From a virus, in the IMG/VR virus record IMGVR_UViG_3300020172_002489, positions 1 through 54,960 of that record: 54,960 nt of DNA; one strand, 5' to 3'. The position numbers and the translations under genes are program-made. Under the pieces are notes generated by a model, which saw only the letters and a program-made list of their open reading frames with translations, was not told where the DNA came from and searched no databases. Below, piece after piece: positions 28,542-46,722 of this stretch (the stretch's first letter is position 1; each line of letters opens with the position of its first letter).

Positions 28542-29573
28542 ATGAAGGTTTTAATTTCAACAGGTGGAGGTAATACGATAGTAGGTGGCTCTGATATGTG
28601 GGTAAACGATTTTCTTAAATACGTCTGGCCTACTCTTCCTTTGAAAAAAAGTTGGAAATTATTATTTGATTCAAAAAGACCTGCTAGTTTTAATCCAGTC
28701 TCCCTACCAAAAGGTCTTGCATATCATTTTCATGGAGATAACCCCGATGTAACGGAACAATGGTTAAAAAATTGTGAAGAAATTCATGTTTTACATCCAC
28801 ATTATCATAAGAGACCTCATATATGGCAGCATGAGGATAAATTTGAAACAATATTTGTTCATGCTTATGCTAAAGAAATTTTAAATGTTTTGGATAATAT
28901 GCCTGAATTAAATCAAATTCAAACTCAAACAAATGTTGATGTAAAATTTTATGAGGAGTATCTTTCAACATTTAGAAAACGAGTATGGATTGGTAATAAT
29001 CATTCAACATTATTAGATGATTTTCCAAATTATACATATGAAATTCCAAATTTTTATAAATTTAAACATAACTTACCACTCACTTCTCATATTGATAATG
29101 GAAAAATAGGATTTGCTTCGAGGACAGAAACTAGAAAATGTTTGCATTGGTTAAATGGTCATCAAGGATTCGCATTGACATCTCAACATGATGTAAAGAA
29201 TCTAAGAGATACTACAACTTATACATTAAAAGATATTGATATTTATCAATGGGACCCTGATATTTATCATTTTTTCATGTTAAAAAATTGGGGTATTTTT
29301 CATGGGGCATATTTTAAAGAACCATTTGGTTATTCTATTTTTCAATCGGTTGATTATGGAAAACTACCAATTTTAAATCACGATTGGGCACCCGAAGTAG
29401 AATACAAATACAGAGTTGGAAATAAGATGGAATTTGATAAAATGGTAAAAATTATTTTAAAAGATTCGTATGAAACTCGTTTAGAAAATTTTACAAATTT
29501 AAAATCTTATATGCTGAAGTTTGATAATGTGGAAAAATGGGTAGATGATGTTCGAAACGTCTTACTCAGATAA
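28542..29573 (+). CDS. GT4-like glycosyltransferase
   Basis: A 343-aa GT-B type enzyme. The N-terminus, MKVLISTGGGNTIVGGSDMW, is the Gly-rich acceptor-side loop. The C-terminal donor-side motif is EPFGYSIFQSVDYGKLPIL, starting at Glu260. In GT4 enzymes this motif is E-x7-E; here the second Glu is Gln268, so activity may be altered. A 106-base gap separates it from the tail fibre, with no late-type motif visible, and it opens the glycan island. The acceptor is unknown. The family call is moderate to good. Confidence 0.72.
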   Translation: MKVLISTGGGNTIVGGSDMWVNDFLKYVWPTLPLKKSWKLLFDSKRPASFNPVSLPKGLAYHFHGDNPDVTEQWLKNCEEIHVLHPHYHKRPHIWQHEDKFETIFVHAYAKEILNVLDNMPELNQIQTQTNVDVKFYEEYLSTFRKRVWIGNNHSTLLDDFPNYTYEIPNFYKFKHNLPLTSHIDNGKIGFASRTETRKCLHWLNGHQGFALTSQHDVKNLRDTTTYTLKDIDIYQWDPDIYHFFMLKNWGIFHGAYFKEPFGYSIFQSVDYGKLPILNHDWAPEVEYKYRVGNKMEFDKMVKIILKDSYETRLENFTNLKSYMLKFDNVEKWVDDVRNVLLR

Positions 29574-29725
29574 TTTTTTATATATTTTTATATAAATATA
29601 TATCGTTTGAGAGAATCTCTCATACTTATACTAAGAAGGGGGGTAGGGGGGTAGTTAAAATAGTTATTAAACTATTAGTTTAAATAAGTATAAAAAAATA
29701 GTATATACTATAAGTTATTAATACT
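29574..29725 (+). other. 152-base noncoding region with G-runs and nested palindromes
   Basis: No gene was found here. The region holds TATAAATA on the + strand at 29591-29598 within an AT palindrome, a GAGAGA/TCTCTC inverted repeat at about 29609-29621, two G6 runs in GGGGGGTAGGGGGG at about 29638-29651, and a TAGTATATACTA palindrome near 29700. It is the most structured gap in the window and may hold a promoter, an RNA element or a protein-binding site. Confidence 0.5.
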
Positions 29726-30508
29726 ATGGGTAGCATTATTAATCTTAATATCGTAAAAGATTTTTTCACAAACAACCAAACTCAACAAAAGGATGTCGAT
29801 GGTGAGTCTTATGTCGAATTAAATCCTATTAAGTATCGTTGGACACATGGTGCAACTGATTTACATTTAGGTGATGGGTTATTAATTTATTCTACGATTC
29901 AATACATGAGGGCAAAGACTTGTGTTTGTTTGGGAAGTGGGGGTGGTTTCATTCCAAGAGTCATGTCTCAAGCAAGAATGGAATTACACGAACAAGAAAT
30001 TTTTACTGGTGATAAATTAATGGAATGGGGTGATATTGGAACAACCATTCTTGTAGATGCATCAAATGGAGTTGGTGGTCAAACTGATTGGGTAGATGAA
30101 GAATCATTTTTTAGACAACATTTTCCTTGTAGAATTATTTTAGATACAACTGAAAATGCATTTTACAATTATTTTGTAAAAGAAGATGTTAAAATTGATT
30201 ATTTACACATAGATGCTGGACATTCCTACGAAAATGTAAAACAAGATTTTGAACTATATTCACAACTTTTAAATCCGTGGGGTATAATTTCAATTCATGA
30301 TACTGATTTATCTTACGAGAAAGAGCATATTATTACTAATGATGTAAAATCAGAAAATCATCAAGAATATGCACATGGACCATCTCGGTTTGTTAAAGAA
30401 CTAAAACAAAATTCAGAGTGGGAGGTTTTTAATTTTTTTAATAATGGTATTTTAAGAACTAAACCAGCATCAACTGGTTTAACTTTTATTCAAAGATGCA
30501 AAAACTAA
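29726..30508 (+). CDS. class I SAM-dependent methyltransferase
   Basis: The 260-aa protein shows the Rossmann-type methyltransferase pattern. Motif I is CLGSGGGF (residues 68-75), an acidic strand end follows at ILVDAS, and YLHIDAGHSYENV (159-171) is followed by WGIISIHDTDL near 190. The last motifs are typical of Methyltransf_24 and related sugar or cephalosporin-hydroxylase-like methyltransferases. It probably O-methylates a sugar or glycan in this island. The 3' end overlaps the next gene by 13 bases. The substrate is inferred from context only. Confidence 0.8.
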   Translation: MGSIINLNIVKDFFTNNQTQQKDVDGESYVELNPIKYRWTHGATDLHLGDGLLIYSTIQYMRAKTCVCLGSGGGFIPRVMSQARMELHEQEIFTGDKLMEWGDIGTTILVDASNGVGGQTDWVDEESFFRQHFPCRIILDTTENAFYNYFVKEDVKIDYLHIDAGHSYENVKQDFELYSQLLNPWGIISIHDTDLSYEKEHIITNDVKSENHQEYAHGPSRFVKELKQNSEWEVFNFFNNGILRTKPASTGLTFIQRCKN

Positions 30509-31347
30509 ATTTGGTTAATGTTGTAGGCCATAATACTACAATGTTAAAACATATGTTAAATCACTATAACGATATGGTAGATGAAATATATGTAGTAGTT
30601 TATAGACAACACGAACTTGATGGTATTTTAGAAGAAATAGTTAATCTTGGCATAAAACCATATAAAGTTGTAACCGAACCAAAATTTAATTGGGAAAGGG
30701 TAACTGAACTATATAATGAAGTAAAACAAACAAAACCTAACGAATGGTGGGTAGTTTCCGATGATGATGAATTTCATATTTACCCCAAGCCAATCAGAGA
30801 AATGATTTCTGAATGTGAAGAAAATGGATGGGATTTTATTACTGGTGGATTTCTCGATAGGATAGGAGAGAATGGTAATTTTCCATTAGTTACACAACAA
30901 ACTGATATTTGGAATGAGTTTCCACTTGCCGGATTTTTTAGATTTCCAATGAGTGGGGCTTGTCCAAATAAAGTTTGTGTGATGAAAGGTTCGGTAAATG
31001 TAACACCTGGTCAACATTATGTAGATTTTGGGAATGGTAAAAACTCTTGGGGAAAAGAAAATATCAAACACCCAAAAAGATACCCAATTGGAAGAGGAGA
31101 GGGATTGATTCAGGTCCATCACTTTAAATGGGATTCTACCGTATTGGAACGATTAAAAGAAGTTTCTGAAACAAAAAAGGATTATACTTACTGGCAAGAA
31201 TACTTAAAAATGTTTAAATCAATCGAACTATTTGATTGGAAAATTGATATAAATAATCCCGAATTTATGTTTGAACGGATGAATTCAAAAAATCATTGGG
31301 GATATTCAAGGTGGGATAAGCTCACTAAAAAAATTGTACTAATTTAA
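30496..31347 (+). CDS. glycosyltransferase (GT2/GT92-like, GT-A fold)
   Basis: A 283-aa protein with the layout of short GT-A transferases that act in glycan assembly. An N-terminal NVVGHNTTMLKHMLNHY helix-strand start is followed by WWVVSDDDEF (residues 84-93), the DxD-type metal and nucleotide-sugar motif, and a later HHFKWD segment in the C-terminal third. It overlaps the methyltransferase gene by 13 bases. Sugar donor and acceptor are not predictable from sequence. Confidence 0.78.
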   Translation: MQKLNLVNVVGHNTTMLKHMLNHYNDMVDEIYVVVYRQHELDGILEEIVNLGIKPYKVVTEPKFNWERVTELYNEVKQTKPNEWWVVSDDDEFHIYPKPIREMISECEENGWDFITGGFLDRIGENGNFPLVTQQTDIWNEFPLAGFFRFPMSGACPNKVCVMKGSVNVTPGQHYVDFGNGKNSWGKENIKHPKRYPIGRGEGLIQVHHFKWDSTVLERLKEVSETKKDYTYWQEYLKMFKSIELFDWKIDINNPEFMFERMNSKNHWGYSRWDKLTKKIVLI

Positions 31348-31354
31348 AAAATAA

Positions 31355-31366
31355 TATATTTATATA
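31355..31366 (+). promoter_or_regulatory. late-type promoter motif TATATTTATATA
   Basis: Exact copy, 22 bases before the start at 31389 and 7 bases after the preceding stop. It would drive the galactosyltransferase and radical SAM genes in the same programme as the virion genes. Confidence 0.6.
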
Positions 31367-31388
31367 TACGAATAAAAATAAAAAAGTT

Positions 31389-31592
31389 ATGGCTGTTACG
31401 AAAAAAATTGGTGATGAAAACCAACAAATTTTAGAAGAGAGAAAAGTTAAAGCATTAGAAAAAATTGCTAATTCTCTTGATGCATTAACCATTTGGTTTG
31501 AAGAAATTGATAAAGATACTTGGGGTCCAAGAATCGAATGGTATTTATCGTTGTGGAAAGATAAATATATCGATGGTGATTCTAAAAAATAA
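31389..31592 (+). CDS. small hypothetical protein
   Basis: The 67-aa protein is not recognised. It is Glu/Lys-rich, with a predicted amphipathic helix at residues 10-40, then a Trp-rich end (DTWGPRIEWYLSLWKD). It lies directly after a late-type motif and 4 bases before the first GT7-LamG gene, so it may be a small partner of that enzyme. No function can be assigned. Confidence 0.7.
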   Translation: MAVTKKIGDENQQILEERKVKALEKIANSLDALTIWFEEIDKDTWGPRIEWYLSLWKDKYIDGDSKK

Positions 31593-31596
31593 TTAA

Positions 31597-33021
31597 ATGC
31601 ATAAATTAGGAATAATAGTTCCTTACCGAAATCGATTTGGTCACCTTCAAGAATTTAAAAAATCAATAGTTGAATATCTCGATTCAAATTCATATCAAAA
31701 TTATGTAATCATTATTGTAGAACAAGATGATGCAAAATTATTCAATCGTGGAATGCTACTAAATATCGGTTTCAAAGAAGCAAAGAAACAAGATTGTGGT
31801 TATGTAGCATTCCACGATGTGGATATGATACCTAAAAATGTAGATTATTCATATTCAGATAACCCACTTCATCTTTCTACTGATTTTATTTTGGAGGATG
31901 ACGAAAAACCAAGAACTATTTTTGATGAATATTTTGGTGGAGTAACCATGTTTCCAATCGATAAATTCGAAGAAATCGATGGATATTCAAACAAGTATTG
32001 GGGGTGGGGATATGAGGATGATGATTTAAGATTAAGATGTTCGGAAAAAGGAATTCCATTACAAACACTTAAAATTAAAAACTATAAATCAAACGGAAAA
32101 TCTTTAAAATTAAATGGTGTAAATGCTTTTGTTAAAGTAAAAAACACAATTGATTTCAGACAAAGTTTTTCAATTTTTATTTCTTTTTATCCTGATAAAT
32201 TATATCTCAATCATGAGAAATCTTCAGATGAATTTACGGTATTTAGTATTCCTGGTTATGATTTTGGTATAAGTTATACATCTTTTAATCGATATAATTT
32301 TTGTTGTTTTGATTCGAAATTAACACCATTATATGTAAATTCAAATATCAAACCAAACTACAAAACCAATATGGTAGTCAGTTTTGATTCTTTATCAAAT
32401 TTGATTAAAATTTATCAAGATGGTTCAGAAATTGGTCAACTAGAAAATTTTAAAAAACTTTACAAATATAACACAAAAGAATATTATTACTTGGGTGTAG
32501 GTGACCCAAATAGAGAAATCATACCAAACTTTTTTAAAGGATATATTGATGGTTTTGCACAATGGGATAAAGTTTTAACTGATACTGAAATTTTAGATAT
32601 ATCAAAAAACGAAACTAATTTATTAAATAAAAATTTTGGTAATTATAACTCAGCAAATTCGTTAAATACTTATTATGATTCTAATCACATAAAGTATTAC
32701 AAACTAACTGATTTATCAGGAAACGAAAATGATGGTGAAATTGTAAATTGTGAAATTGTAGATTTAGATATACCGAAATATACTGAAGTAAAAATCCCAT
32801 ATAGAAGAAATGGATTATTTAAATCTTTAAAACATGATGAAAATGGATTTGACGGGCAACGATGGAAAGACAAACACACTCGTTATAATCAATTAAGATT
32901 TGTAAACGAAGTATCGAATCACATATCGTTAATTAATAGAGATGGGTTATCTACTTTAAAATATCTTCTTTACGGTAAAACGGAATCTGATAATATAATA
33001 CACTTAAATGTGGGAATATAA
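31597..33021 (+). CDS. beta-4-galactosyltransferase-like (GT7) enzyme with inserted LamG domain
   Basis: The first half of the 474-aa protein matches the GT7 family: VPYRNR (8-13), FNRG (49-52), HDVD metal motif (73-76), YFGG (112-115) and GWGYEDDD (136-143). A LamG-like domain follows at about 165-395 (KSLKLNGVNAFVKV start, GYIDGFAQWDKVLTDTEI near its end). GT7 sequence then resumes: SLKHDENG with His413 at the usual metal-ligand position, and DGLSTLKY (449-456). The lectin domain therefore sits inside the catalytic domain rather than at an end. The enzyme probably transfers Gal or GalNAc to a glycan. The gene at 33155 has the same design. Confidence 0.85.
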   Translation: MHKLGIIVPYRNRFGHLQEFKKSIVEYLDSNSYQNYVIIIVEQDDAKLFNRGMLLNIGFKEAKKQDCGYVAFHDVDMIPKNVDYSYSDNPLHLSTDFILEDDEKPRTIFDEYFGGVTMFPIDKFEEIDGYSNKYWGWGYEDDDLRLRCSEKGIPLQTLKIKNYKSNGKSLKLNGVNAFVKVKNTIDFRQSFSIFISFYPDKLYLNHEKSSDEFTVFSIPGYDFGISYTSFNRYNFCCFDSKLTPLYVNSNIKPNYKTNMVVSFDSLSNLIKIYQDGSEIGQLENFKKLYKYNTKEYYYLGVGDPNREIIPNFFKGYIDGFAQWDKVLTDTEILDISKNETNLLNKNFGNYNSANSLNTYYDSNHIKYYKLTDLSGNENDGEIVNCEIVDLDIPKYTEVKIPYRRNGLFKSLKHDENGFDGQRWKDKHTRYNQLRFVNEVSNHISLINRDGLSTLKYLLYGKTESDNIIHLNVGI

Positions 33022-33035
33022 AAACATTTTATTAT

Positions 33036-33158
33036 ATGATATCATTTACAACAGAAGAATGTAAAAAAATAATTAAATTATCCTTACCACAAAGTTTAGA
33101 ACTTACACATATATGTATTTCAAAAACTACCATATCTAACACTAAAAGTTTACTATGA
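33036..33158 (+). CDS. 40-aa ORF, possible remnant of an oxygenase-type gene
   Basis: ATG at 33036 runs for 40 codons; its TGA overlaps the ATG of the next gene in an ATGA junction, which suggests translational coupling. The N-terminus, MISFTTEECKKIIKLS, looks like the start of 2OG-Fe(II) oxygenases (S.EEC..II.L), but no His-x-Asp motif follows. It may be a degraded gene start or a leader peptide. Support is the junction and codon run only. Confidence 0.35.
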   Translation: MISFTTEECKKIIKLSLPQSLELTHICISKTTISNTKSLL

Positions 33159-34621
33159 AATTAGGAGTTTGTGTTCCGTATAGAAACCGAGAATCACACT
33201 TAAAAGAATTTATTCCACAAGTTGGTAAATATCTCGAAGAACAAGGAATTGATTATCAAATATATTTTGGTCACCAAGTTGATGACAAATTGTTTAATAG
33301 AGGTGCAATGAAAAACATTGCAGCAAAACAAGCATTCGAAGATGGATGTGATTATATAGTTTGGCATGACATTGATATGATACCCGAAGAAGGGTGTGAT
33401 TACTCGTTTCCTGATAAGAATCCAATTCATATTGCAACCAATATCTCACAAATGAATTATGAGTTAAAGTATGAAGAATACTTTGGTGGTGCAGTTATCT
33501 TTTCTAAAGAACAAGTGGAAAAAACCAATGGTTATTCAAATGATTATTGGGATTGGGGGATGGAAGATGATGACCTTTTTTGGAGATGTAATTTAGAAGG
33601 TTATGCAAATAATTCTTATATGGATTATACATCAGAACCACAATCTTTTTTACATTTTGATGGTTTTAATTCTCACATTAAAATTGATAAACATTCAACA
33701 CTTCGTAATGTAACATCTCGTTCCCATACTATTTCAGTTTTGGTTCGTGCAAATCAACAAGAAGAAAAAGTTCCTATTTGGTTAGTAGGTGATACTGAAA
33801 GGAGATTTTGTGAATATCCAATTATAAGAAGACCTGGATACGATTATGGAATCTCCTACAATAATTCTCGTGCATATACTGCACAACTTTGGGATAACGA
33901 GCAAAATCATTTATATCAATGGATGAAACGATACGAGAATCAATGGAGTTGGGTAACACTTTCAGTTGATACTTCAAATCAAAATATTCACTTTTATTTG
34001 AATGGAAAGGAATCCGATTCTCGTTGGGGAACTGGAACTCCGTCACCACTTCATTACGATAACAGATTAAAGAGTTATGGGTTAGATGATTGGTATATTG
34101 GTACAACTACTTCAGTAGGTAAGAAGGAGGTTAATAGATGGTTTAAGGGGGATATTGCAAAAGTAATGATTTGGAATAGAAACTTATCATCGGATGAAAT
34201 CCAAAATTTACATACAAATCCAACTCAAAATGGATTAGTTCTTCATTATGATTTCAATGATGAAAAACAAAAAAATTCTCCTTTTGTAGCAATTGATTTA
34301 AGTGGAAATGAAACACATGGTTCTATTAATAGATGTGAGGAAAAAAGTGAAGAAATCAAAATTCCATACACAATTATTCCACATAGAAAACCGGGTAAAT
34401 TGAGATGTTTACCACATAAAGATGAGGGGTTAATAAAAATAGATGGAGTTGATAAATGGGCAAAGGGTGAACCCACTGCAAGAAACGAAAGAAGATATGT
34501 TTTACAAATGCAACAAGGTGATTGGGATTACAAATCGGATGGGATTAATTCATTAAAATATGAACTAATTAGTATCGATGAATTGACACCTAAAGCAAAA
34601 ATGATAAATGTAAAATTGTAA
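33155..34621 (+). CDS. second GT7-type galactosyltransferase-like enzyme with inserted LamG domain
   Basis: The 488-aa protein is a diverged tandem paralogue of the protein at 31597. GT7 motifs are VPYRNR (7-12), FNRG (47-50), HDID (71-74), YFGG (109-112) and WDWGMEDDD (132-140). The inserted LamG-like domain spans about 160-395, with FLHFDGFNSHIKI at its start and a DLSGNETHG segment at its end. GT7 sequence resumes with CLPHKDEG (His421) and closes with SDGINSLKYELI (461-472), matching the end of animal beta-4-galactosyltransferases. It is coupled to the 40-aa ORF by ATGA. Donor and acceptor are unknown. Confidence 0.85.
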   Translation: MKLGVCVPYRNRESHLKEFIPQVGKYLEEQGIDYQIYFGHQVDDKLFNRGAMKNIAAKQAFEDGCDYIVWHDIDMIPEEGCDYSFPDKNPIHIATNISQMNYELKYEEYFGGAVIFSKEQVEKTNGYSNDYWDWGMEDDDLFWRCNLEGYANNSYMDYTSEPQSFLHFDGFNSHIKIDKHSTLRNVTSRSHTISVLVRANQQEEKVPIWLVGDTERRFCEYPIIRRPGYDYGISYNNSRAYTAQLWDNEQNHLYQWMKRYENQWSWVTLSVDTSNQNIHFYLNGKESDSRWGTGTPSPLHYDNRLKSYGLDDWYIGTTTSVGKKEVNRWFKGDIAKVMIWNRNLSSDEIQNLHTNPTQNGLVLHYDFNDEKQKNSPFVAIDLSGNETHGSINRCEEKSEEIKIPYTIIPHRKPGKLRCLPHKDEGLIKIDGVDKWAKGEPTARNERRYVLQMQQGDWDYKSDGINSLKYELISIDELTPKAKMINVKL

Positions 34622-34644
34622 TATATATTAATAAATAAGAAGTT

Positions 34645-36102
34645 ATGGCTGAAGAAAATATAGAATTTCAGAAAGAAGAAAATAAAAAACTTAAAAAAAC
34701 ATTTGCGGGTGATAATCCATTTTATCTCGGTGTACGAGATGATTTAAATAAAATAGGACCAGGTATGTGTCTAGCAAAATGGACACAAGTAACTATGCAC
34801 TTACAACTCGGTCATACTCACTCATGTCACCACCCAAAAACTCATCCAATTTCACCATCGGAAATTAAAAGAAACCCATCTGCATTACATAACACTGCGT
34901 ATAAAAAACGAAGAAGAAAGGAAATGTTAGAAGGTAGTAGACCTGAAGAGTGTGATTATTGCTGGAATGTAGAAGATAATTCAGACAGATTTTCAGACAG
35001 AACATTCAAATCTTCTGAATCATGGTCTTTACCACATTATAAAGAAATTACCGAATTAAATTGGAGAGCCGATTACAATCCAAAATATGTAGAGGTTGCA
35101 TTCTCAAATGCTTGTAATTTTAAATGTTCTTATTGTGGCCCTGCTTTTTCTACTAAATGGATGGAAGAGATAGAAAAACATGGTGCATATCCTACAACTG
35201 ATCGATTTAATGATACTCGATATTTAGAAGAGGAAAATAAAAAACCATTTAAACAAACTGAATATAATCCTTATGTTGAGGCCTTTTGGAAATGGTGGCC
35301 TGATTTATATAAAGATTTACACACTTTTAGAATTACTGGTGGAGAACCTCTAATGTCAAAAGATACTTGGGATGTATTGGATTATATTATTGATAATCCT
35401 AATCCTAATAGAGGATTGAATTTAGCAATTAATTCAAATCTCGGTGTTCCTGATAAACTAATTGATAAGTTTATTGAAAAGATAAAAAGAATAACTGAAG
35501 AAAATCGAGTAAATGAATTTATAGTGTTTACATCATGTGATACATGGGGAGACCAAGCAGAATACATTAGAAATGGGTTAGTGTTTAATCAATTTTGGGA
35601 CAATGTAAACAAATTAATGAGCAATTGTCCAAGAGTTAATTTAACTTTTATGTCTACATATAATGCATTGTCAGTTCCAAACTACGATAAACTTATAGAA
35701 GGAGTATATCAACTTAAAAAAGATTACGGGTCAACTGATAGATATTGGGCATCTGCTGTATTTTTAGATACATCTTATTTGAGATATCCAACCCATCAGA
35801 CGGTACAAGTATTACCACAATCTTGGACAGAAAATATATTTAAACAAGCCCAACTTGCAGATTTTCTTTCTGTGCCTCTTTTTGAAAACAAATACATTGG
35901 GTATTCTGATATAGAAATTCAAAAAATCAAAAGAACATACGATTGGATGAAATCGGTAAAACAAGATGAAGAACTACTTAGAAAACAATATAATTTTGGT
36001 AAGTATTTCCAAGCACACGATGATAGACGAGGAACTAATTTTAAAAAAGTATTTCCTGAATTAGCAGAATTTTTTGAATGGACAAAAACAATTAATATAT
36101 GA
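34645..36102 (+). CDS. radical SAM protein (twitch-type)
   Basis: The 485-aa protein has the radical SAM cluster motif C157-x3-C161-x2-C164 (ACNFKCSYCG), binding a 4Fe-4S cluster. A TGGEPLM motif near residue 233 contacts SAM. The N-terminal region has a CxxC pair (ECDYCWN) and His/Cys-rich SCHHPKTHP. From memory, twitch-domain radical SAM proteins of this length recur in phages. The product may be a modified sugar or peptide. The gene starts 23 bases after the GT7 gene and overlaps the LamG gene by 4 bases. Confidence 0.87.
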   Translation: MAEENIEFQKEENKKLKKTFAGDNPFYLGVRDDLNKIGPGMCLAKWTQVTMHLQLGHTHSCHHPKTHPISPSEIKRNPSALHNTAYKKRRRKEMLEGSRPEECDYCWNVEDNSDRFSDRTFKSSESWSLPHYKEITELNWRADYNPKYVEVAFSNACNFKCSYCGPAFSTKWMEEIEKHGAYPTTDRFNDTRYLEEENKKPFKQTEYNPYVEAFWKWWPDLYKDLHTFRITGGEPLMSKDTWDVLDYIIDNPNPNRGLNLAINSNLGVPDKLIDKFIEKIKRITEENRVNEFIVFTSCDTWGDQAEYIRNGLVFNQFWDNVNKLMSNCPRVNLTFMSTYNALSVPNYDKLIEGVYQLKKDYGSTDRYWASAVFLDTSYLRYPTHQTVQVLPQSWTENIFKQAQLADFLSVPLFENKYIGYSDIEIQKIKRTYDWMKSVKQDEELLRKQYNFGKYFQAHDDRRGTNFKKVFPELAEFFEWTKTINI

Positions 36103-36833
36103 GTAGTTTAAAATTTGAAGGTAATAATGCTTGGTTTGTAACTCCCGATAACAAATACGGATTAAGTAAATTTCCAATGAAAAACATAACCGAAAATGAT
36201 TTTTCTTTTTTAACATCTATACGAGTAAATTGGGATAAAATGAATCCAAATAATAATACACGAGAAGGTGGAGTTATTATAAAAAATGGATTACATTTAG
36301 GTTTGAGTGTAATTAAACCAGATAACGAGCATGTGTATATTAAAGGAACTATATGGACAATGGATGCGAGTTTAGGTTCAAATGCAATGAAAAATTATGA
36401 TATACTTGTAAAAGTTAATTGGGAAGATGGTGATTTGGATAAAGAATATAAAGTAGGATTTTCTTTTAAAAGAAAAGAAAAAGAATTTTCTGTATATTGT
36501 AATGGAACGTGGTTGACTGAAAAGTTTGAGGGGTCTTTAATTGATTATTCAAACGCTTGGTTATGGGTAGGAGCATCAAATCCATTAGAGAGTTGTCCAG
36601 AAGATTTTAGACAATTTTTTAATGGAGAAATGTATTATGCAGCTATTTTTTCAAAATTTTTAGATAGAAGTGAAATTGAAGAAATTTATAACGAACCCGA
36701 TGATGTATCTAAAAGATTGAAACCAACTTGTATTTTTAATTTTAAAAGACAAACTCCTTATAAAATATTAGATATATCGGAAGTAGGAAATAATTTAATT
36801 AGATTTGATAAAGAATGGATGGATTCGATTTAA
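36099..36833 (+). CDS. stand-alone LamG/concanavalin A-like protein
   Basis: The 244-aa protein is essentially one LamG-type beta-sandwich. SSLKFEGNNAWFVTP at the start matches the SLKLNGVNAF entry into the inserted domains of the GT7 enzymes, and a FNGEMYYAAIFSKFLDRSEIEEIY segment matches their closing motif. It lacks a signal peptide. It starts by a 4-base overlap with the radical SAM gene and overlaps the next gene by 19 bases. It may bind glycan or be a separated version of the inserted domain. Confidence 0.75.
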   Translation: MSSLKFEGNNAWFVTPDNKYGLSKFPMKNITENDFSFLTSIRVNWDKMNPNNNTREGGVIIKNGLHLGLSVIKPDNEHVYIKGTIWTMDASLGSNAMKNYDILVKVNWEDGDLDKEYKVGFSFKRKEKEFSVYCNGTWLTEKFEGSLIDYSNAWLWVGASNPLESCPEDFRQFFNGEMYYAAIFSKFLDRSEIEEIYNEPDDVSKRLKPTCIFNFKRQTPYKILDISEVGNNLIRFDKEWMDSI

Positions 36834-39216: not shown

Positions 39217-39784
39217 TTTATTTTATAAAGAAAGAAGTTGGAATGATTTCCACTTTTATAATGGTTCGGTTTTACCACAAGTAAAAATCGTACAACCATC
39301 GATTTATCACGAAATTCGTGGTTCAATATCAACAACTTATCATTCAGATTATTACGATAGATTGTTGCCTGCTGCAGAAAGAAACGAAGGTCTTTCATTT
39401 AAACATGATAGATACTCCAAATCTAAAAAAGGTGTTCTTCGAGGATTACATTGGGATGAAAAAACTTGGAAAATGGTTTCGTGTCCACATGGTAGAATTT
39501 ATTTAGTAGTTTTGGATGTAAGAGAAAAAACTCCTGATTTTGGTAAATGGGAAACATTTATTCTCTCACCTGAAACTGGGACTCAAGTTTTAGTTCCACC
39601 TTATTTTGCCAATGGTCATTTTGTAATGGAAGATGATTCTATTTTTTCATATAAAATGGCGTATGAAGGTGAATATAATGATGAAAATAAACAACATACT
39701 ATTGTGTGGAACGATTCAAGATTTAATATAGATTGGCCAACTGATAATCCAATCTTATCTAAACGAGACAAATATGGAAATTAA
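39200..39784 (+). CDS. dTDP-4-dehydrorhamnose 3,5-epimerase-like protein
   Basis: The 194-aa cupin is close to RmlC/RfbC in length (about 180 aa). It has KKGVLRGLHWD with the catalytic His, GRIYLVVLDVR, a VPPYFANGHFV segment, and an SYKMAYEGEY stretch holding the likely catalytic Tyr, then a VWND end. It would epimerise a 4-keto nucleotide sugar. A nearby epimerase/reductase (38248, 42660 or 43632) could finish a deoxysugar pathway. It overlaps both neighbours. Confidence 0.86.
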   Translation: MGLGRSLFYKERSWNDFHFYNGSVLPQVKIVQPSIYHEIRGSISTTYHSDYYDRLLPAAERNEGLSFKHDRYSKSKKGVLRGLHWDEKTWKMVSCPHGRIYLVVLDVREKTPDFGKWETFILSPETGTQVLVPPYFANGHFVMEDDSIFSYKMAYEGEYNDENKQHTIVWNDSRFNIDWPTDNPILSKRDKYGN

Positions 39785-40412
39785 AAATTTAGAGTATCAC
39801 GAGACTCGTTGGTTGGGAAGTAATTGGAATAAGGAAGAACTTATTCATTTTGAAGATGATATTATTTCTCATTGGGAAAAGGGAGAAATAAAAGGACCTA
39901 TTCATTTATCAAATGGAAATGAAGAACAACTCATTGAAGTATTCAAAAAAATATCACCAACTGATTGGGTATTTTCAACTTGGAGGTCACACTATCATGC
40001 ACTTCTTCATGGAGTTAAACCACGAAAATTAAAAGAAAAAATTCTTGATGGTAAATCAATAACAATTATTGATAAAGAATCTAATTTCTATTCATCTGCT
40101 ATTGTCACTGGAACTTTACCTATTGCATTAGGAGTTGCAAAATCATTAAAAATGAAAGGAAGTGACGAGAAGGTTTGGTGTTTTATTGGTGATATGAGTT
40201 TTGAAACTGGTTTCTTTTATGAAGTACATAAATATGCCAGAAACTTTGATTTACCTTTATATTTTGTAGTTGAAGATAATGAAGTATCGACAAATACCCC
40301 AACATTGGATACATGGGGTGGTATTCAACGAGAAATACCAAATGATGTAATCTATTATAAGTATAAATCTAAATACCCACATTATGGGACAGGAAAATGG
40401 GTAGTGTTTTAA
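39774..40412 (+). CDS. thiamine-diphosphate enzyme, alpha-type (TPP-binding) subunit
   Basis: A 212-aa compact version of the E1-alpha/transketolase N-terminal domain. The TPP/Mg site is GDM (139-141) through EDNEVST (167-173), the GDG...N motif with Met for the last Gly. It is much shorter than usual E1-alpha subunits (about 320-360 aa). The partner subunit is probably the gene at 44624, four genes downstream. The pair would join or cleave a two-carbon or acyl unit, perhaps in branched or higher sugar synthesis. It overlaps the neighbours by 11 and 16 bases. Confidence 0.82.
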   Translation: MEIKNLEYHETRWLGSNWNKEELIHFEDDIISHWEKGEIKGPIHLSNGNEEQLIEVFKKISPTDWVFSTWRSHYHALLHGVKPRKLKEKILDGKSITIIDKESNFYSSAIVTGTLPIALGVAKSLKMKGSDEKVWCFIGDMSFETGFFYEVHKYARNFDLPLYFVVEDNEVSTNTPTLDTWGGIQREIPNDVIYYKYKSKYPHYGTGKWVVF

Positions 40413-41518
40413 ACTTTATAATACAAGATGAAAATAGTTATGGAAACTGGTCTTTTCAGGGTCCAATAATTCAAAAAGTTATGAATGAATATTCATACAC
40501 TATTTTTCCAGAAGTTAAAAAAGATTGTAAAAATTATTTATTAATTGAACCAACTGAATCTTATTTCGGTTTAGTAAAAAGAATTGATGCTATTTTAAGA
40601 AAAATAGATATTAAAAAATTCATAGAAAAAAATAATGTAAAAATATTATTATCTTCTATGGCTGACCCCCCAACTTTTTCGAATTATAAACAATTATCTA
40701 TAAAATTAAAAAAACATAAAATTTTAGATAGATGTTTATTTTTAACTAGTAATATTAATTTACAAGGAAATAATATTAAATCATATCATTTTTTTATTGA
40801 ACAGGCAATTAAATCCAAAGATTCATTTTTTGGAGTAGATACTTGTTTAGGATATAAAAGTGAAGAAATACAAATCAATGAATTAGATAATTTTAGAAAC
40901 AAAAAGTTTTTATCATTTAATAGAACTGTTGATAAAGAACATAGATTTTCATTATTTCATGATTATTTAACAAATAATTTTACTGATTCGTATTTTAGTT
41001 TTTTGACATTAGAAGGAATACATTGTCCACCTTTTCAAGATAATCAACTAACACTTGAACAATATTTAGAAAAAATACCTATTGAATTGGATACTAATAA
41101 AAAATTTAATTTTAGTGTAAGTAATACTATGCGAAAAGATTTATTTTTAGATTCTTGTATTAATTTAGTCACAGAAACTTCTTATAATAATAATGAATTA
41201 TTTTTATCAGAAAAAATTTTAAAGCCTATTTTAAATTATCAACCTTTTATCGTCTTAGGTCCAGTAAATTATCTAAAAGAATTAAAAAAATTAGGATTTA
41301 AAACATTTTCTGATTTTTGGGATGAATCTTATGATAATATAGAAGAAGGAAGAGATAGATATTTTAAAGTTTCTGAACTAATAATAAACTTAAATTCATT
41401 TGATATTAATAAACTAAATAATTTATACCAAGAAACAAAAAAAATTTGTATATATAATAAGAATCATTTTAATGAACTTAAAATGGATGGTATAAGTTTA
41501 TTTTTTGACAAATTATAA
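40397..41518 (+). CDS. glycosyltransferase-like protein, SEK/WDESYD family
   Basis: A 373-aa member of the four-member family. It shows KFLSFNRTVDKEHR, then LSEKILKPILNYQPFIVLG, LKKLGFKTF and WDESYDNIEEGRDR. It lacks most of the N-terminal region seen in the copies at 36815 and 45162. Its start lies inside the TPP alpha gene with AGGA 4 bases before the ATG. It is markedly AT-rich. A GT-B type transferase is inferred from the GT10-like segment. Confidence 0.65.
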   Translation: MGSVLNFIIQDENSYGNWSFQGPIIQKVMNEYSYTIFPEVKKDCKNYLLIEPTESYFGLVKRIDAILRKIDIKKFIEKNNVKILLSSMADPPTFSNYKQLSIKLKKHKILDRCLFLTSNINLQGNNIKSYHFFIEQAIKSKDSFFGVDTCLGYKSEEIQINELDNFRNKKFLSFNRTVDKEHRFSLFHDYLTNNFTDSYFSFLTLEGIHCPPFQDNQLTLEQYLEKIPIELDTNKKFNFSVSNTMRKDLFLDSCINLVTETSYNNNELFLSEKILKPILNYQPFIVLGPVNYLKELKKLGFKTFSDFWDESYDNIEEGRDRYFKVSELIINLNSFDINKLNNLYQETKKICIYNKNHFNELKMDGISLFFDKL

Positions 41519-41519
41519 T

Positions 41520-42626
41520 ATGAAACATAATGAAGATATACTTAAAAAGTATGTTTGTATTCAACCGTTTAAACACATAGAGTTTTTTGAAGACCATGCA
41601 ACCATGTGTTGTCCAACTTGGTTGGAGACAAAATTGTGGTATGGTAAAAACGAAGATGGTTCACTTAATTATGATGTTTGGAAATCTGAAACTGCAAATA
41701 AAATTAGAGAATCTATTTTAGATGGTTCATATTCACATTGTGATAAAACAGCATGTCCTCATTTAAGTACATTAATACATACTAAACAACCAAGTGGATT
41801 TTTTATAAAAAAAGAAAAATTACCATTTAAAATGTATGATGGTTTTGTTATAGATGATAAAAAAGTAAGTTCTGGTCCTGGGTCTATAAATTTTACATAT
41901 GATGATAGTTGTAATCTAAAATGCCCATCATGTAGATTACACGTTATAATGGCAAAACCTGACCAAATTATAAAAATTGATAATATCACCGATTTTATTA
42001 AAAACAATTATTCAAAAGAGGCTAGAAAACTTGCTATTACTGGCAGTGGAGACCCTTGGGCTTCAAAATCATTTAGAAAATTTTTATTTGAGTTTGACCC
42101 AAAAGTATGGCCAAACTTAGATGATATATACCTAACCACAAACGCAAATTTATTTACTGAAAAAAATTGGAAAAAAATAGAAAAGGCTCATCCGTATGTA
42201 AAATCAGTAGAAATATCAATAGATGCTGCTACAAAAAATACTTACGAAAATAAAACAAGAATAGGTGGGAACTGGGAAGTCTTAATGGAAAATTTAGATT
42301 TTATCAGTACTATACCGACCATACAAAATTTAAGATGCTCATTCGTTACTCAATTGGATAATTATACAGAAATGCGAGAGTTTGCAGAACTTATTTATAA
42401 GAAATTTGAAAAAAGAATTCAAACTCAAGGTTATTCTGAAGCAACACTTGTTTATTTTGGTAAAATTTATCAATGGACACACATGGATTATGAATCATTT
42501 AAACAAAAAGCAATTTGGACTGAAGACCACCCTGAATATAAAAAATTTGTAGATGAAGTAAATAGATTGTATGAATTCGATAAAATTTTCATCCAGTCAA
42601 ACTTTACTGATTTATTAAGAAAATAA
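41520..42626 (+). CDS. radical SAM protein (SPASM-like type)
   Basis: I chose ATG 41520 rather than the TTG at 41505 because it gives a normal start 1 base after the previous stop; the product is 368 aa. The cluster motif is C131-x3-C135-x2-C138 (SCNLKCPSCR). The N-terminus, VCIQPFKHIEFFEDH then CCPTW, and CDKTACPHL are typical of SPASM/twitch-type radical SAM proteins that modify sugars or peptides. It differs from the protein at 34645 and is probably not its recent duplicate. The substrate is unknown. Confidence 0.85.
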   Translation: MKHNEDILKKYVCIQPFKHIEFFEDHATMCCPTWLETKLWYGKNEDGSLNYDVWKSETANKIRESILDGSYSHCDKTACPHLSTLIHTKQPSGFFIKKEKLPFKMYDGFVIDDKKVSSGPGSINFTYDDSCNLKCPSCRLHVIMAKPDQIIKIDNITDFIKNNYSKEARKLAITGSGDPWASKSFRKFLFEFDPKVWPNLDDIYLTTNANLFTEKNWKKIEKAHPYVKSVEISIDAATKNTYENKTRIGGNWEVLMENLDFISTIPTIQNLRCSFVTQLDNYTEMREFAELIYKKFEKRIQTQGYSEATLVYFGKIYQWTHMDYESFKQKAIWTEDHPEYKKFVDEVNRLYEFDKIFIQSNFTDLLRK

Positions 42627-42636
42627 ACTTATTATA

Positions 42637-42648
42637 TATATTTATATA
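42637..42648 (+). promoter_or_regulatory. late-type promoter motif TATATTTATATA
   Basis: Exact copy, 11 bases before the start at 42660 and 10 bases after the preceding stop. It is the shortest spacing of the set and would drive the epimerase, TPP beta and last glycosyltransferase genes. Confidence 0.58.
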
Positions 42649-42659
42649 AAACAAACGAC

Positions 42660-43628
42660 ATGCAAAACAAAAAGGTTTTAATAACAGGTGCCAATGGATT
42701 AGTTGGCAACTACATGGTTCAAAAGTGCATTGATAGAGGTGCATTTGTAACAGCGGTTGATATTCATGAACCAAAAAATCAATTAGAAAAATACGCAACA
42801 TCCGGCCAATATCAGTTTATCAAGGCCGATTTAAGAGAATTTTTAAATTGTAAAAAAGTAGTTGAAGGACAAGATATTGTTTTTCATATTGCAGGTGTAA
42901 AGGGTTCTCCAAAAAGAGCAGCAGAACAACCTGCAGATTATTTTGTACCAATGTTACAATTTAATACCAATATGATGGAAGCTGCAAGGTTGGAAGATGT
43001 GGAGTGGTATGTTTATACATCAACGGTTGGCGTTTATCAACCAGCAGAAGTATTCTTTGAGGACGATGTATGGAAGACATTCCCATCGGAAAAAGATAAG
43101 TACGCAGGATGGGCAAAAAGATTAGGTGAACTTCAAGCAGAGGTATATTCAGTATCTTACGATTGGAATAACGCATCAATTGTAAGACCGGCAAACATTT
43201 ATGGTAGACATGACAATTTTGGTCCTGAATCGACTGTCATTGCATCCCTGATTAAAAGATTGTTTGGTGAAAAAGAACACCCACTTGTTTGTTGGGGAGA
43301 TGGTTCTCCAATTAGAGATTTTATCTACGCAGGAGATGTTGCAGATGGAATTATTAAAGCATACGAACAAAAACTAACACACCCAATTAACTTGGGTAGT
43401 GGAACTGGTGTAACTATTAAAGAACTTGCTGAAACTCTTGTAGAAATTTACGAAGAAATGTATGGAGTAAAAGTTCAAATCGAATGGGACCCGTCTAAAC
43501 CGAACGGAGATACAAAGAGATTGATGAGTACTGAAAGAGCAGAATCATTTGGTATTAAACAACAAGTATCGCTCAAAGAAGGATTAAAAGAAACAATAGA
43601 TTATTATTTAAACGAATATAACAAATAA
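42660..43628 (+). CDS. NAD-dependent epimerase/dehydratase (GDP-fucose synthase-like)
   Basis: A 322-aa extended SDR enzyme. GANGLVG (10-16) is the NAD loop. The catalytic-site segment is KYAGWAKRLGE, in which Tyr148 and Lys153 are separated by four residues rather than the classical three. WGDGSPIRDFIYAGDVADGI in the C-terminal half is typical of nucleotide-sugar epimerases. It follows a late-type motif and ends 3 bases before a second epimerase gene. It likely makes a deoxysugar precursor. The exact reaction is open. Confidence 0.85.
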   Translation: MQNKKVLITGANGLVGNYMVQKCIDRGAFVTAVDIHEPKNQLEKYATSGQYQFIKADLREFLNCKKVVEGQDIVFHIAGVKGSPKRAAEQPADYFVPMLQFNTNMMEAARLEDVEWYVYTSTVGVYQPAEVFFEDDVWKTFPSEKDKYAGWAKRLGELQAEVYSVSYDWNNASIVRPANIYGRHDNFGPESTVIASLIKRLFGEKEHPLVCWGDGSPIRDFIYAGDVADGIIKAYEQKLTHPINLGSGTGVTIKELAETLVEIYEEMYGVKVQIEWDPSKPNGDTKRLMSTERAESFGIKQQVSLKEGLKETIDYYLNEYNK

Positions 43629-43631
43629 GTT

Positions 43632-44624
43632 ATGAAAAAAACAGACAAGATTTTAGTTACGGGTGCAAGTGGATTCATTGGTTCACATTTATTGAGATTA
43701 CTTTGGGAAAAAGGTTATAAAAATCTTCGTGCAACCTCATTCAGTAGAGATTTAAGAGGTGATTTTGAAGGTTGGGAAAATGTACAACATTTCGAAGGTG
43801 ATTTACAAACAAAGTTTTTTTGTGAAAATGTAACAAAGGATGTTGATGTAGTTTTTCATTGTGCAGCGAATACTTCAAATGCATTAGATACGAAAGAAAA
43901 TCCACTTTTGCATGTTACTCCAAATGTTGAAATGAATGTAAATTTGATGGAACAATCTTGGAGAAATGGGGTTAAAAAATTCTTATTTATTTCTTCTAAT
44001 ACAGTTTATCCTGATATGAAGGATGAGTTTTGTACTGAAGATTTAAATATTCATGCAACTCCAACTTTTCCAATCTATGGTGCAGTTGGTAATATGAAAA
44101 GATATGGTGAATTGTTGTGTGATTATTTTTCACACCAAATTCACAATCCAATGCAATGTTTGATTGTTAGACCTTCAAATGCTTTCGGTCCAAACGATAA
44201 ATTTGATTTTGAAAAATGTCATGTTACTCCTGCAAACATTAGAAAAGTAGCAGATGGATTGAATCCAATTCCAGTTTGGGGTGATGGAAGTGAAGTACGA
44301 GATTTACTTTATGTTGAAGATATGGCAGATGGATTTATTTGGGTTGCTGAAAACAACGATACTTACAATATTTTTAATGTTGCTTACGGTGAAGGATTTA
44401 GTGTAAATGAAGTGTTGGGTTGGATTAAAGAAATCGAACAAAATGATAACCCAATCGAATATGTAAACAATAAGGCACCAATGATTCCCGTTCGTTTACT
44501 TTCTTCAAAGAAAATCAATGCAGCAGGTTGGAAACCAAAACGAGATTTGAAACAAGCACTCAAAGAAACTCTTGAGTGGTATAAAGCAAACAAACATCAA
44601 TATAATCCAAATTCAAGACCATAA
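43632..44624 (+). CDS. NAD-dependent epimerase/dehydratase with unusual active-site spacing
   Basis: A 330-aa SDR enzyme with GASGFIG (11-17) as the NAD loop, SSNTVYP as the Ser strand, and WGDGSEVRDLLYVEDMADGF matching the previous protein. The catalytic segment reads IYGAVGNMKRYGE: Tyr149 and Lys156 lie seven positions apart instead of four, so either a different residue serves as base or the loop has been remodelled. It probably arose by duplication with the gene at 42660. It overlaps the TPP beta gene by 1 base. Confidence 0.83.
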   Translation: MKKTDKILVTGASGFIGSHLLRLLWEKGYKNLRATSFSRDLRGDFEGWENVQHFEGDLQTKFFCENVTKDVDVVFHCAANTSNALDTKENPLLHVTPNVEMNVNLMEQSWRNGVKKFLFISSNTVYPDMKDEFCTEDLNIHATPTFPIYGAVGNMKRYGELLCDYFSHQIHNPMQCLIVRPSNAFGPNDKFDFEKCHVTPANIRKVADGLNPIPVWGDGSEVRDLLYVEDMADGFIWVAENNDTYNIFNVAYGEGFSVNEVLGWIKEIEQNDNPIEYVNNKAPMIPVRLLSSKKINAAGWKPKRDLKQALKETLEWYKANKHQYNPNSRP

Positions 44625-45172
44625 TGAGTACACCACAATTTACTCCTTATTTAGATGCATTAACCGAATCAATGAAATTGTGTATGGAAGACCCATCCAC
44701 AATTTTTATTGGCCAACAAATCGTGTATTATGGAAACCCGATGTCAAAAACAATTGAAGGTTTACCAAAAGAACGAATGATTGAAACTCCGGTCATGGAA
44801 GAAACTCAAATGGGAATGAGTATTGGATTAGCAATGACAGGACATAGAGTAGTATCATTTTATCCAAGATGGGATTTTCTTATTTGTGCATCAAATCAAT
44901 TAATAAATCACTTGGATAAACTTGAAGCAATGTCAGATGGGGAATTTATCCCAAATGTAATTATCAGAGTTGGTAAAGGTTCCGATAAACCACTTGACCC
45001 AGGTCATCAACATAAGTCAGATTATTCAGATGAGTTTTCCTCAATGTTAAAACATATACCAATTATAAAATTGGATTCTGCTGATAAAATTCTACCTGCA
45101 TATAAAAAAGCATTATCATCAAATGGACCAATTATTTTAGTGGAATATCCTGAATTGTATTATGAAAATTAA
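44624..45172 (+). CDS. thiamine-diphosphate enzyme, beta-type (pyrimidine-binding) subunit
   Basis: The 182-aa protein matches only the pyrimidine-binding domain of E1-beta/transketolase. The TPP-activating Glu lies in ETPVMEETQMGMSIGLAM (residues 54-71), with FYPRWDFLICASNQLINH and a closing IKLDSADKI. The usual C-terminal domain of about 120 aa is absent. With the alpha subunit at 39774 it makes a minimal two-subunit enzyme. A role in sugar-chain carbon transfer is inferred from the island. Confidence 0.82.
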   Translation: MSTPQFTPYLDALTESMKLCMEDPSTIFIGQQIVYYGNPMSKTIEGLPKERMIETPVMEETQMGMSIGLAMTGHRVVSFYPRWDFLICASNQLINHLDKLEAMSDGEFIPNVIIRVGKGSDKPLDPGHQHKSDYSDEFSSMLKHIPIIKLDSADKILPAYKKALSSNGPIILVEYPELYYEN

Positions 45173-46628
45173 AAGATTATTTGATGTAGTAGGGCCCTCT
45201 GGTTTTATACCCACTGGTTGGAATTGGAATTTTACTGATGATATTTGGAACAATAATTTTGTTATTGACCATAATTTTATAGAAACTTTTAATTCAAAAT
45301 ATGTTCAAGTACCTGTGTATGAGTGTAATTTAAATTTACCACTTCACTTAAATGATTTACATATTTCGGAAGTAAGATATGATGAAGATGAAAAAATTCT
45401 TGAAAATTCGTTAGAAAAATCATTATTTTTGATGACAGTACATCCTTATGGTAGTATTGATACTTGCACTGGTAAAAATACAAATTACCATGAAAATACA
45501 CATTCATTTGATTTTATATCTGAGATAGCTAAAAATTATTTAAGAAATGCTACTAATTTTTATTTAGTTATGGATTATAGTAGTGAAGGTGATATAAGGA
45601 ATTCTTTATTTGAAAATTTACATAAAAAATGTAAAGAGTTAAATATATCACCAAAGAAAGTTATAGTAATATCAGCATCGATGAATACTCGTGACATTTA
45701 TGAAGAATATTTAAAAAATAATCCAGAATCACAACAATTTTATACAGCTTATTATTGTTGGTCAGTAACTTCCAAGAAAAAAGAAACCGAACATCTTTTA
45801 AGTAGAGATTCTGTTTTTGAATTTAATGGAAATTCAAACGAATGTTCTTTAATGAATTTAGATGAATTAAAAAATTCAAAAAATAAATCAAAAAAATGTT
45901 TAATATACAATAGAAGAGTTGCACCACATAGAGTAATTATTTTAAGTTTATTACATACTGATGGATTAATCAAAAAATGTGATTATTCTATTGATTTAAA
46001 TTTATGGGATTATGGTCTTGATGATATGGGATTGGAATTAGCAAATGGAACTGATTACGATGGTGTTTCATATATTCAAGATAAACAATATAAATCTAAA
46101 ATGATTGGTGGTTATTTTAAATTAAGCAAACATCCAAAAAACACAATTGATTATGATAATATAGATAAAGTTTGGGGATTTGGATTTGAACAAAAAGAAC
46201 CATATTTAAATACATATTTTAGTTTAATAACCGAAACATTATTTTACGAACATGGTCACTATATTTCAGAAAAATCATTTAAAGGTATTGCTCATTTACA
46301 TCCATTTGTAATATTAGGTAAGCCTGGTATAATAAAACAACTACAAAAATGGGGATTTAAAACTTTTTCAGATTTTTGGGATGAATCATATGATACTATA
46401 CAAAATAATTCTGAAAGAATAATTAAAGTGTATGAGATAGTTAAATCATTGATAGAAAAAACAAATGAAGAATGGGATGAAATGTATGAAAAGTTATACC
46501 CAATATTAGAACATAACAGAAACCATTTACTTTCGATGAGTGAAGAATATATTTCAGATACTTATGTTTATAACCTTAATAAATTATTAGAAAATGAACC
46601 CAATCAAGAAAATTATAGCTTATTTTAA
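45162..46628 (+). CDS. glycosyltransferase-like protein, SEK/WDESYD family
   Basis: A 488-aa member of the family. It shows KKCLIYNRRVAPHR, SEKSFKGIAHLHPFVILG, then LQKWGFKTF and FWDESYD followed by NNSER. The order and spacing match the proteins at 36815 and 40397. It is strongly AT-rich and overlaps the TPP beta gene by 11 bases. Its 3' end overlaps the 42-aa ORF by 35 bases. A transferase role is inferred from the GT10-like segment and the context. Confidence 0.66.
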   Translation: MKIKRLFDVVGPSGFIPTGWNWNFTDDIWNNNFVIDHNFIETFNSKYVQVPVYECNLNLPLHLNDLHISEVRYDEDEKILENSLEKSLFLMTVHPYGSIDTCTGKNTNYHENTHSFDFISEIAKNYLRNATNFYLVMDYSSEGDIRNSLFENLHKKCKELNISPKKVIVISASMNTRDIYEEYLKNNPESQQFYTAYYCWSVTSKKKETEHLLSRDSVFEFNGNSNECSLMNLDELKNSKNKSKKCLIYNRRVAPHRVIILSLLHTDGLIKKCDYSIDLNLWDYGLDDMGLELANGTDYDGVSYIQDKQYKSKMIGGYFKLSKHPKNTIDYDNIDKVWGFGFEQKEPYLNTYFSLITETLFYEHGHYISEKSFKGIAHLHPFVILGKPGIIKQLQKWGFKTFSDFWDESYDTIQNNSERIIKVYEIVKSLIEKTNEEWDEMYEKLYPILEHNRNHLLSMSEEYISDTYVYNLNKLLENEPNQENYSLF

Positions 46629-46722
46629 AAATAAGAGAGAAGAAAAGAAAAGACAAGAAATCTACAAGAAAAAATTAGAAGAACTTCGTAAGAGAGACCC
46701 ATTCGTATATAAAAACCACTAA
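46594..46722 (+). CDS. 42-aa basic, helical small protein
   Basis: ATG at 46594 runs 42 codons in a different frame from the preceding gene, overlapping it by 35 bases, and fills most of an otherwise empty 127-base gap. The protein starts MNPIKKIIAYFKNKREEKK and ends LEELRKRDPFVYKNH: one long basic helix with a PFVYK end. I recall similar small proteins in marine T4-like phages. A short CACTA/TAGTG inverted repeat spans its stop codon. Confidence 0.6.
   Translation: MNPIKKIIAYFKNKREEKKRQEIYKKKLEELRKRDPFVYKNH

Follow-up and report, generated by a model that had tools for sequence, protein, structure and literature searches.

Glycan clusters of phages and the glycosylation of virions are already known kinds of system, and few cases are known of phage particles glycosylated by enzymes that the virus encodes. 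In chloroviruses, soluble virus-encoded enzymes glycosylate a virion protein, and PBCV-1 uses such transferases together with a methyltransferase to build a constant core with variable, virus-specific outer sugars (PMC7019647). Glycans are also carried by capsid and tail-tube proteins of mycobacteriophages (Freeman et al. 2023, cited by PMC12619734). Moraphages, large aquatic phages with predicted Bacteroidota hosts, have four widely shared glycosyltransferase orthogroups, which the accessible part of the same paper describes without family, order, acceptor or insertion (PMC12619734). The T4-like cyanophages S-SM2 and P-TIM68 carry lipopolysaccharide (LPS)-like clusters of nucleotide-sugar epimerases, transferases and a thiamine-diphosphate (TPP) enzyme, and in the capsule pathway of Campylobacter jejuni (Cj1427, Cj1430, Cj1428) enzymes of Cj1427 and then Cj1430 type process GDP-D-glycero-manno-heptose before a C4-reductase acts (PMC10680097; PMC7949155). 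The gene island described here lies in a stretch of 54,960 nucleotides, positions 1 to 54,960 of virus record IMGVR_UViG_3300020172_002489 (the window). The window is a fragment of a T4-like myovirus encoding a gp6-like baseplate protein, a primase, a gp46/47-like protein, an S74 fibre and a large terminase about 55% identical to the terminases of Microcystis phage Mel-JY01 and Flavobacterium phages. The island genes, all on the + strand and nearly gapless, occupy positions 28542-46628, bounded on one side by the S74 tail-fibre gene and on the other by the packaging genes. We read the island as a cytosolic glycosylation system of the phage, expressed late with the structural genes and decorating virion fibres, the acceptor that we infer; our confidence in this reading is evenly divided.

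The island is built on a core of six genes in the order MT24, GT2/GT92-like, sm67, GT7-LamG_A, GT7-LamG_B and rSAM1, which recurs in more than 100 distinct viral contigs from uncultivated phages. A search with GT7-LamG_A retrieved 56 viral contigs, representing 37 distinct full-length loci besides the window at 95% identity. Wherever a contig was long enough, these loci carried the other core genes (MT24 35/35, GT2/GT92-like 35/35, sm67 36/36, GT7-LamG_B 35/35, rSAM1 31/31), and 32 of them had the complete set in a single order. Scans with the GT2/GT92-like protein (best 80 of 331 loci) and with sm67 (best 80 of 214 loci) gave an identical map nearly everywhere, rearranged or reduced forms being confined to L106, L114, L169, L174, L175 and L232; in total, 114 GT7-LamG_A clusters were obtained at 95% identity. 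Among 12 large contigs the terminase is 69-97% identical to that of the window in nine, 30-33% identical in two and not detected in one, and the core proteins are about 34-62% identical in the contigs with a distant or undetected terminase. Because the core is kept at terminase identities of 30-33%, it outlasts, or moves between, distant phages. Comparison of the island with relatives for gain and loss of whole blocks, proposed in an earlier note on this DNA, shows the core kept in order almost everywhere; in L027, L033, L035 and L061 arrays of diverged rSAM1 paralogues (up to six) replace the SDR/TPP cassette (SDR, short-chain dehydrogenase/reductase) behind it. Four of the six core genes and TL_C were compared by tblastn with 50,697 GenBank phage records: MT24, GT7-LamG_A, sm67 and TL_C had no match, and rSAM1 gave three weak matches there, in Vibrio phages; a nucleotide-level search of the island DNA against GenBank phages gave none. 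The fibre gene, the island genes and the promoter-like motifs are arranged as follows (SAM, S-adenosylmethionine; HMM, hidden Markov model; pLDDT, predicted local distance difference test).

22697-28435, +, tail fibre, 1912 aa, with a C-terminal S74 chaperone (PF13884, 1.2e-8), 25% Ser+Thr and a short collagen-like run at residue 1123
28542-29573, +, GT4L, putative GT-B transferase, conserved EPFGY.IF...D.GK.PI
29726-30508, +, MT24, core gene 1, SAM methyltransferase (PF13578, 2.5e-10)
30496-31347, +, GT2/GT92-like glycosyltransferase, core gene 2, DDDE motif (PF13704, 6.7e-5, below cut-off)
31357-31364, +, late-type promoter motif TATTTATA, 32 bp 5' of sm67, kept there in 8/9 close relatives
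31389-31592, +, sm67, core gene 3, charged small protein of 67 aa (alignment of 38 sequences)
31597-33021, +, GT7-LamG_A, core gene 4, GT7 fold at about 1-165 and 395-474 with a LamG/pentraxin insert at about 166-394 (Pfam, model, catalytic residues)
33155-34621, +, GT7-LamG_B, core gene 5, paralogue whose LamG lies at the same place between the GT7 motifs (PF13733, PF02709, PF13385; LamG HMM 165-400)
34645-36102, +, rSAM1, core gene 6, twitch-type radical SAM protein (NF033640, 3.9e-106)
36099-36833, +, standalone LamG protein (LamG-insert HMM, 1.1e-7)
36815-38251, +, TL_A, predicted GT-B glycosyltransferase family (family alignment)
38248-39216, +, SDR1, GDP-heptose C4-dehydrogenase-like, Cj1427 type (PDB 6vo6, E 4e-111)
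39200-39784, +, RmlC-like protein, nearest to GDP-4-keto-heptose 3,5-epimerases (PDB 8db5, 1.4e-46)
39774-40412, +, TPPa, one half (PP) of a split TPP enzyme of E1-like type (PF00676, 1.3e-15)
40397-41518, +, TL_B, predicted GT-B glycosyltransferase, GT10 marginally nearest (model pLDDT 90.9)
41505-42626, +, rSAM2, radical SAM protein with extra cysteines (PF04055, 4.8e-7; NF033640, 2.4e-13, below its cut-off)
42639-42646, +, late-type promoter motif TATTTATA 5' of SDR2, kept there in only 1/8 relatives
42660-43628, +, SDR2, GDP-fucose-synthase-like, candidate C4-reductase (family matches)
43632-44624, +, SDR3, GDP-fucose-synthase/epimerase-like (family matches)
44624-45172, +, TPPb, the other half (PYR) of this split enzyme (family matches)
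45162-46628, +, TL_C, predicted GT-B glycosyltransferase family (family alignment)

Every island open reading frame (ORF) listed in the earlier note is present on the + strand, and its span holds except at the end: the last gene stops at 46628, and the position 46722 given there takes in part of the gap before 46756. The small core gene at 31389-31592 had been overlooked. Pfam and NCBIfam bear out the SAM methyltransferase, the two radical SAM proteins, the three extended SDRs, the RmlC-like epimerase and the E1-alpha- and E1-beta-like TPP proteins; the GT2-like transferase is recovered below the cut-off, its D89, D91 and E92 being invariant, and the standalone LamG protein, which has no Pfam match, is recovered by the LamG-insert profile. 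The 'GT4-like' label at 28542 did not hold, since no family is detectable there by Pfam, NCBIfam, PHROGs or PDB profile search, and the EPFGY.IF motif alone suggests a putative GT-B enzyme. Between this gene and MT24 (29574-29725), G runs (GGGGGGTAGGGGGG) stand beside a TATAAATA on the + strand. Downstream of the island, 46756-50193 encodes a 1145-aa protein with a cytidylyltransferase-like N-terminus and DUF5661, kept near the terminase gene in relatives. In L026 (4175-6919) a single ORF comprises GT7-LamG_B and rSAM1, which could be a genuine fusion or stem from misassembly, and SGNH-like proteins with a GCSFT-type motif, one of them matching DUF6071, recur in the variable cassettes of L025, L024, L031, L066 and L069 as possible acyl-group enzymes.

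At the molecular scale, GT7-LamG_A and GT7-LamG_B are predicted members of the beta-4-galactosyltransferase family GT7. Both domains announced in the earlier note, GT7 (PF13733/PF02709, 1e-17 to 1e-19) and LamG, are found in both proteins, with LamG inserted in GT7 and not appended to it. D74, D76, W137, G138, E140 and D141, from the DxD and W-G-W-G-x-E-D motifs, occur in 197/197 sequences, and on the C-terminal side of the insert H413 occurs in 196/197 and G450 in 197/197. The AF2 model of GT7-LamG_A (pLDDT 90.8; pTM, predicted template modelling score, 0.87) places a LamG/pentraxin domain within the GT7 GT-A fold: residues 1..474 match bovine B4GALT1 (1tvy) with Z 24.6 over 211 residues at 2.3 A, leaving the middle unaligned, and residues of about 166-394 match LamG/pentraxin domains with Z of about 17-21. 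Uninserted GT7s of 244-253 aa occur in other viral contigs. In polypeptide GalNAc-transferases of family GT27 the lectin is a ricin-type domain appended C-terminally, whereas here a LamG/pentraxin domain lies within the GT7 fold. These enzymes likewise combine a catalytic and a lectin domain in one chain, the lectin aiding glycopeptide specificity (PMC4432651). In a near relative, L096, the N-terminal GT-A part is 68% identical, the insert 26% and the C-terminal part 52%, with neighbouring island genes mostly at 80-96%, LamG and TL_A at 71% and the fibre at 33%; the insert is the fastest-changing part of GT7-LamG_A. Because LamG is also a separate island gene, and because some relatives of rSAM1 have long N-terminal extensions that look LamG-like on reading, the sequences suggest a common targeting role for LamG across these proteins. 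A 1542-aa tail-region protein at 7985-12613 also has a LamG domain (PF13385, 8.7e-8), which the GT7-insert LamG profile did not match.

An ORF of at least 700 aa lies upstream of the core in 25 of the 27 loci with 6 kb of upstream DNA. Direct reading of eight such ORFs shows fibre-type ends in all of them, S74 and collagen-like ones among others, including in contigs with a terminase that is about 31% identical or undetected. Ser+Thr makes up 26% of these large upstream ORFs on average, and 10/35 contain collagen-like Gly-x-y runs of up to 147 triplets. Late-type motifs, placed at 31355 and 42637 in the earlier note, are indeed present, with exact starts at 31357 and 42639. In 1,525 intergenic bases TATTTATA occurs 10 times against 1.06 expected from dinucleotide shuffles (at most 6 in any of 500 shuffles), and it stands 5' of sm67 and SDR2 as well as of three genes in the packaging region (the CTP-transferase-like one, g51483 and g54477). 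It is the reverse complement of the T4 late motif, and its designation as 'late' is by analogy with T4. Close relatives keep it upstream of sm67 in the proportion listed above, of MT24 in 6/9 and of the three packaging-region genes in 7/7 each. Enrichment in distant relatives is weak and uneven (MT24 5/20 and sm67 3/16 against a background of 1.7%), and because it concerns only some genes there, the argument from the motif is limited mainly to the window's own clade. The proposal of glycan assembly with late, virion-linked expression, made in the earlier note, is thus supported by the core operon, the shared promoter-like motif, the fibre adjacency and the finding of no lipid-linked pathway genes.

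The sugar involved is probably a remodelled heptose made by a 4-keto GDP-heptose route as in the Campylobacter capsule, because SDR1 and the RmlC-like protein are closest to Campylobacter GDP-heptose enzymes, the nearest solved structures. SDR1 matches 6vo6, presumably Cj1427, at 4e-111 and its next structure at 5e-23, a specific sequence relation to the GDP-heptose C4-dehydrogenase above other SDRs; Cj1427 performs an alpha-ketoglutarate-dependent oxidation of GDP-heptose (PMC10680097). The RmlC-like protein scores 162 bits against GDP-4-keto-heptose epimerases (8db5), with which its RG(L/I)H and KT(W/Y)K align, and 91 against dTDP-rhamnose epimerases (1e-24 or weaker). The 'deoxy' sugar suggested in the earlier note was not borne out, no island protein being nearest to a 4,6-dehydratase, and a branched sugar is possible via the split TPP enzyme. 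SDR2 matches GDP-fucose synthases best and SDR3 mixed SDRs, and the Campylobacter C4-reductases belong to the GDP-fucose-synthase-type class. The island differs from the Campylobacter system in belonging to a phage, in having GT-B and TPP enzymes alongside, in the absence of GDP-heptose synthesis genes from the window and in its unsure reductase. Compared with the cyanophage clusters, the TPP enzyme is split here and a single chain there (45-47% identity to TPPa); TPPa corresponds to residues 3-199 and TPPb to residues 236-402 (31%) of the single 402-aa S-SM2 protein. Those clusters also contain a phosphoheptose isomerase, a kinase and a nucleotidyltransferase, and the stretches compared gave no match to any core gene. 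In L034, L036, L042 and L046, TPPb is encoded on the minus strand close to the core and TPPa was not seen there; the other half is possibly elsewhere.

Remodelling of host LPS or capsule during infection is the rival that survives best, although we think it rather unlikely. Cytosolic enzymes of the island would supply precursors of an unusual heptose and add them to host lipid-linked oligosaccharides, for export by host flippases, blocking superinfection or the sticking of progeny to debris. Serotype conversion by prophages is well known, the closest relatives of SDR1 and the RmlC-like protein are capsule enzymes, and related TPP and SDR genes occur in the LPS-like clusters of S-SM2 and P-TIM68. 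However, no island ORF has a membrane-protein signature, and Wzx (PF01943), Wzy_C (PF04932) and Bac_transf (PF02397) were found in 0 of 12 large relatives, which are possibly fragments. Since this signature, a flippase, a polymerase/ligase and an initiating transferase are all missing, a lipid-linked route encoded by the phage itself is disfavoured. The late-type motif and the fibre adjacency also argue against host-surface remodelling, as does the persistence of the core behind fibre genes even where the terminases are distant.

The remaining transferases bear on a second alternative. The 'unassigned transferase-like family' of the earlier note proved real: TL_A, TL_B and TL_C are aligned paralogues, and as modelled from one member they are a family of GT-B glycosyltransferases. 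A PDB profile search gave no sequence match for the family; GT-B enzymes fill the structure matches of the TL_B model, led by 2nzx (GT10; Z 11.2 over 270 residues) and in effect tied with EXT1 (10.7) and T4 BGT (10.6). GT10, a user of GDP-sugars, among these tied matches would fit a GDP-sugar donor and is no proof of one. DNA glycosylation is common in phages, and glycosylation of phage DNA bases against restriction could draw on T4 DNA glucosyltransferases being among these many matches and on thymidylate-synthase-family proteins (PF00303) in 7/12 large relatives, a family that ordinary thymidylate synthases match too. We nevertheless consider it improbable: no base hydroxymethylase or other DNA-modifying gene was recognised in the island, late-type motif and fibre adjacency speak against it, and GT7 enzymes that carry an inserted LamG, alongside radical SAM and LamG proteins, are, to our knowledge, unlike known DNA-modification cassettes.

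The small core protein sm67 is most simply read, from gene order and co-occurrence, as a candidate partner of GT7-LamG, because it adjoins GT7-LamG_A and the two are lost together. GT7-LamG_A is the next gene after sm67 in 202/204 cases with a median overlap of 8 nt (redundant contigs counted), and the sole GT7 locus without sm67, L014, is on a contig that starts inside the GT7 gene. In L106 and L114 the GT7 genes and sm67 are both absent, and MT24, the GT2-like gene and rSAM1 are retained. A small-molecule or ribosomal peptide pathway, with radical SAM enzymes, a small protein as precursor and sugars on a secreted product, is very hard to credit: it could account for the radical SAM arrays of relatives, the conserved small ORF within the core and one bacterial contig with transport genes beside GT7-LamG, but sm67 tracks GT7 and not rSAM, is conserved mid-protein with no conserved leader and variable core, has no Cys in the window copy, and the phage island has no exporter.

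The contig in question, L084 (6516-8006), from a metagenome-assembled genome (MAG), has GT7-LamG adjoining GT2, ABC-transporter and HlyD-like genes. It came from a bacterial-genome scan with GT7-LamG whose hits were mostly MAG contigs and which identified no donor host. In L083 (409-1884) and L084 the GT7-LamG gene is not accompanied by any further core gene, which suggests that bacteria use the same enzyme design; L080-L082, where core genes follow a phage-like order, appear to come from phages. As bacterial MAG contigs carry it, the GT7-LamG architecture is not phage-exclusive.

Under the preferred reading, glycosylation of fibres by the phage, the six-gene core would build and cap a basal glycan, and the exchangeable downstream cassette (GDP-heptose 4-oxidation, epimerisation and reduction, GT-B enzymes, split TPP enzyme and rSAM2) would add outer sugars. 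Like the lectin domain of polypeptide GalNAc-transferases, the inserted LamG most likely recognises sugar that is already in place and directs the catalytic half towards acceptor sites close by, the likeliest acceptor being the Ser/Thr-rich fibre protein encoded just upstream; the resulting glycosylated tail fibre may benefit the phage through shielding or adsorption. A sulfotransferase-family protein encoded outside the island (16247-16819; PF03567, 6e-14) could sulfate the same glycan. A more elaborate version is tentative at best: LamG in GT7 would read the growing glycan and sm67 would set acceptor specificity, as alpha-lactalbumin does for beta-4-galactosyltransferase 1, in a recombining machine whose fast exchange of LamG inserts and cassettes would alter the coat of the fibre and not the fibre. 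Several points weigh against fibre glycosylation. No acceptor has been identified, adjacency to the fibre gene could perhaps reflect a tolerated insertion site, and soluble cytosolic transferases can also add LPS or capsule sugars via host flippases. The window and its relatives are possibly fragments, and GT4L, which has no identifiable family, gave chance-level matches only in the PDB profile search. Direct reading of SDR2 and SDR3 found no canonical YxxxK where expected, which makes a reductase role uncertain, and MlghC, a GDP-heptose C4-reductase, has Phe where the triad Tyr is expected (PMC7949155). Supply genes for GDP-heptose are missing from the window and a GmhA-type family from all 12 large relatives, of which only two have NTP_transferase; the precursor would therefore be made by the host. 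PBCV-1 differs in being an algal virus, in lacking a GT7 with inserted LamG or a radical SAM enzyme in the available part of its description, and in its acceptor, which is proven there and inferred here (PMC7019647).

A literature search on jumbo phages with radical SAM enzymes and glycosyltransferases gave no match, and what is new, as far as checked, is the strict core, the nesting of LamG in GT7 in phages, the small protein tied to it and the GDP-heptose cassette. The nested LamG-in-GT7 enzymes and sm67 offer new handles for glycosylation enzymology, and the cassette predicts a sugar traceable by mass spectrometry. Altogether, the evidence suggests that these large aquatic phages put a variable sugar coat on their own virions, most likely on the fibres. 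If this is true, virion glycosylation would be a regular feature of a large group of phages, and some of the 'auxiliary' sugar genes seen in aquatic viromes would be explained by it.

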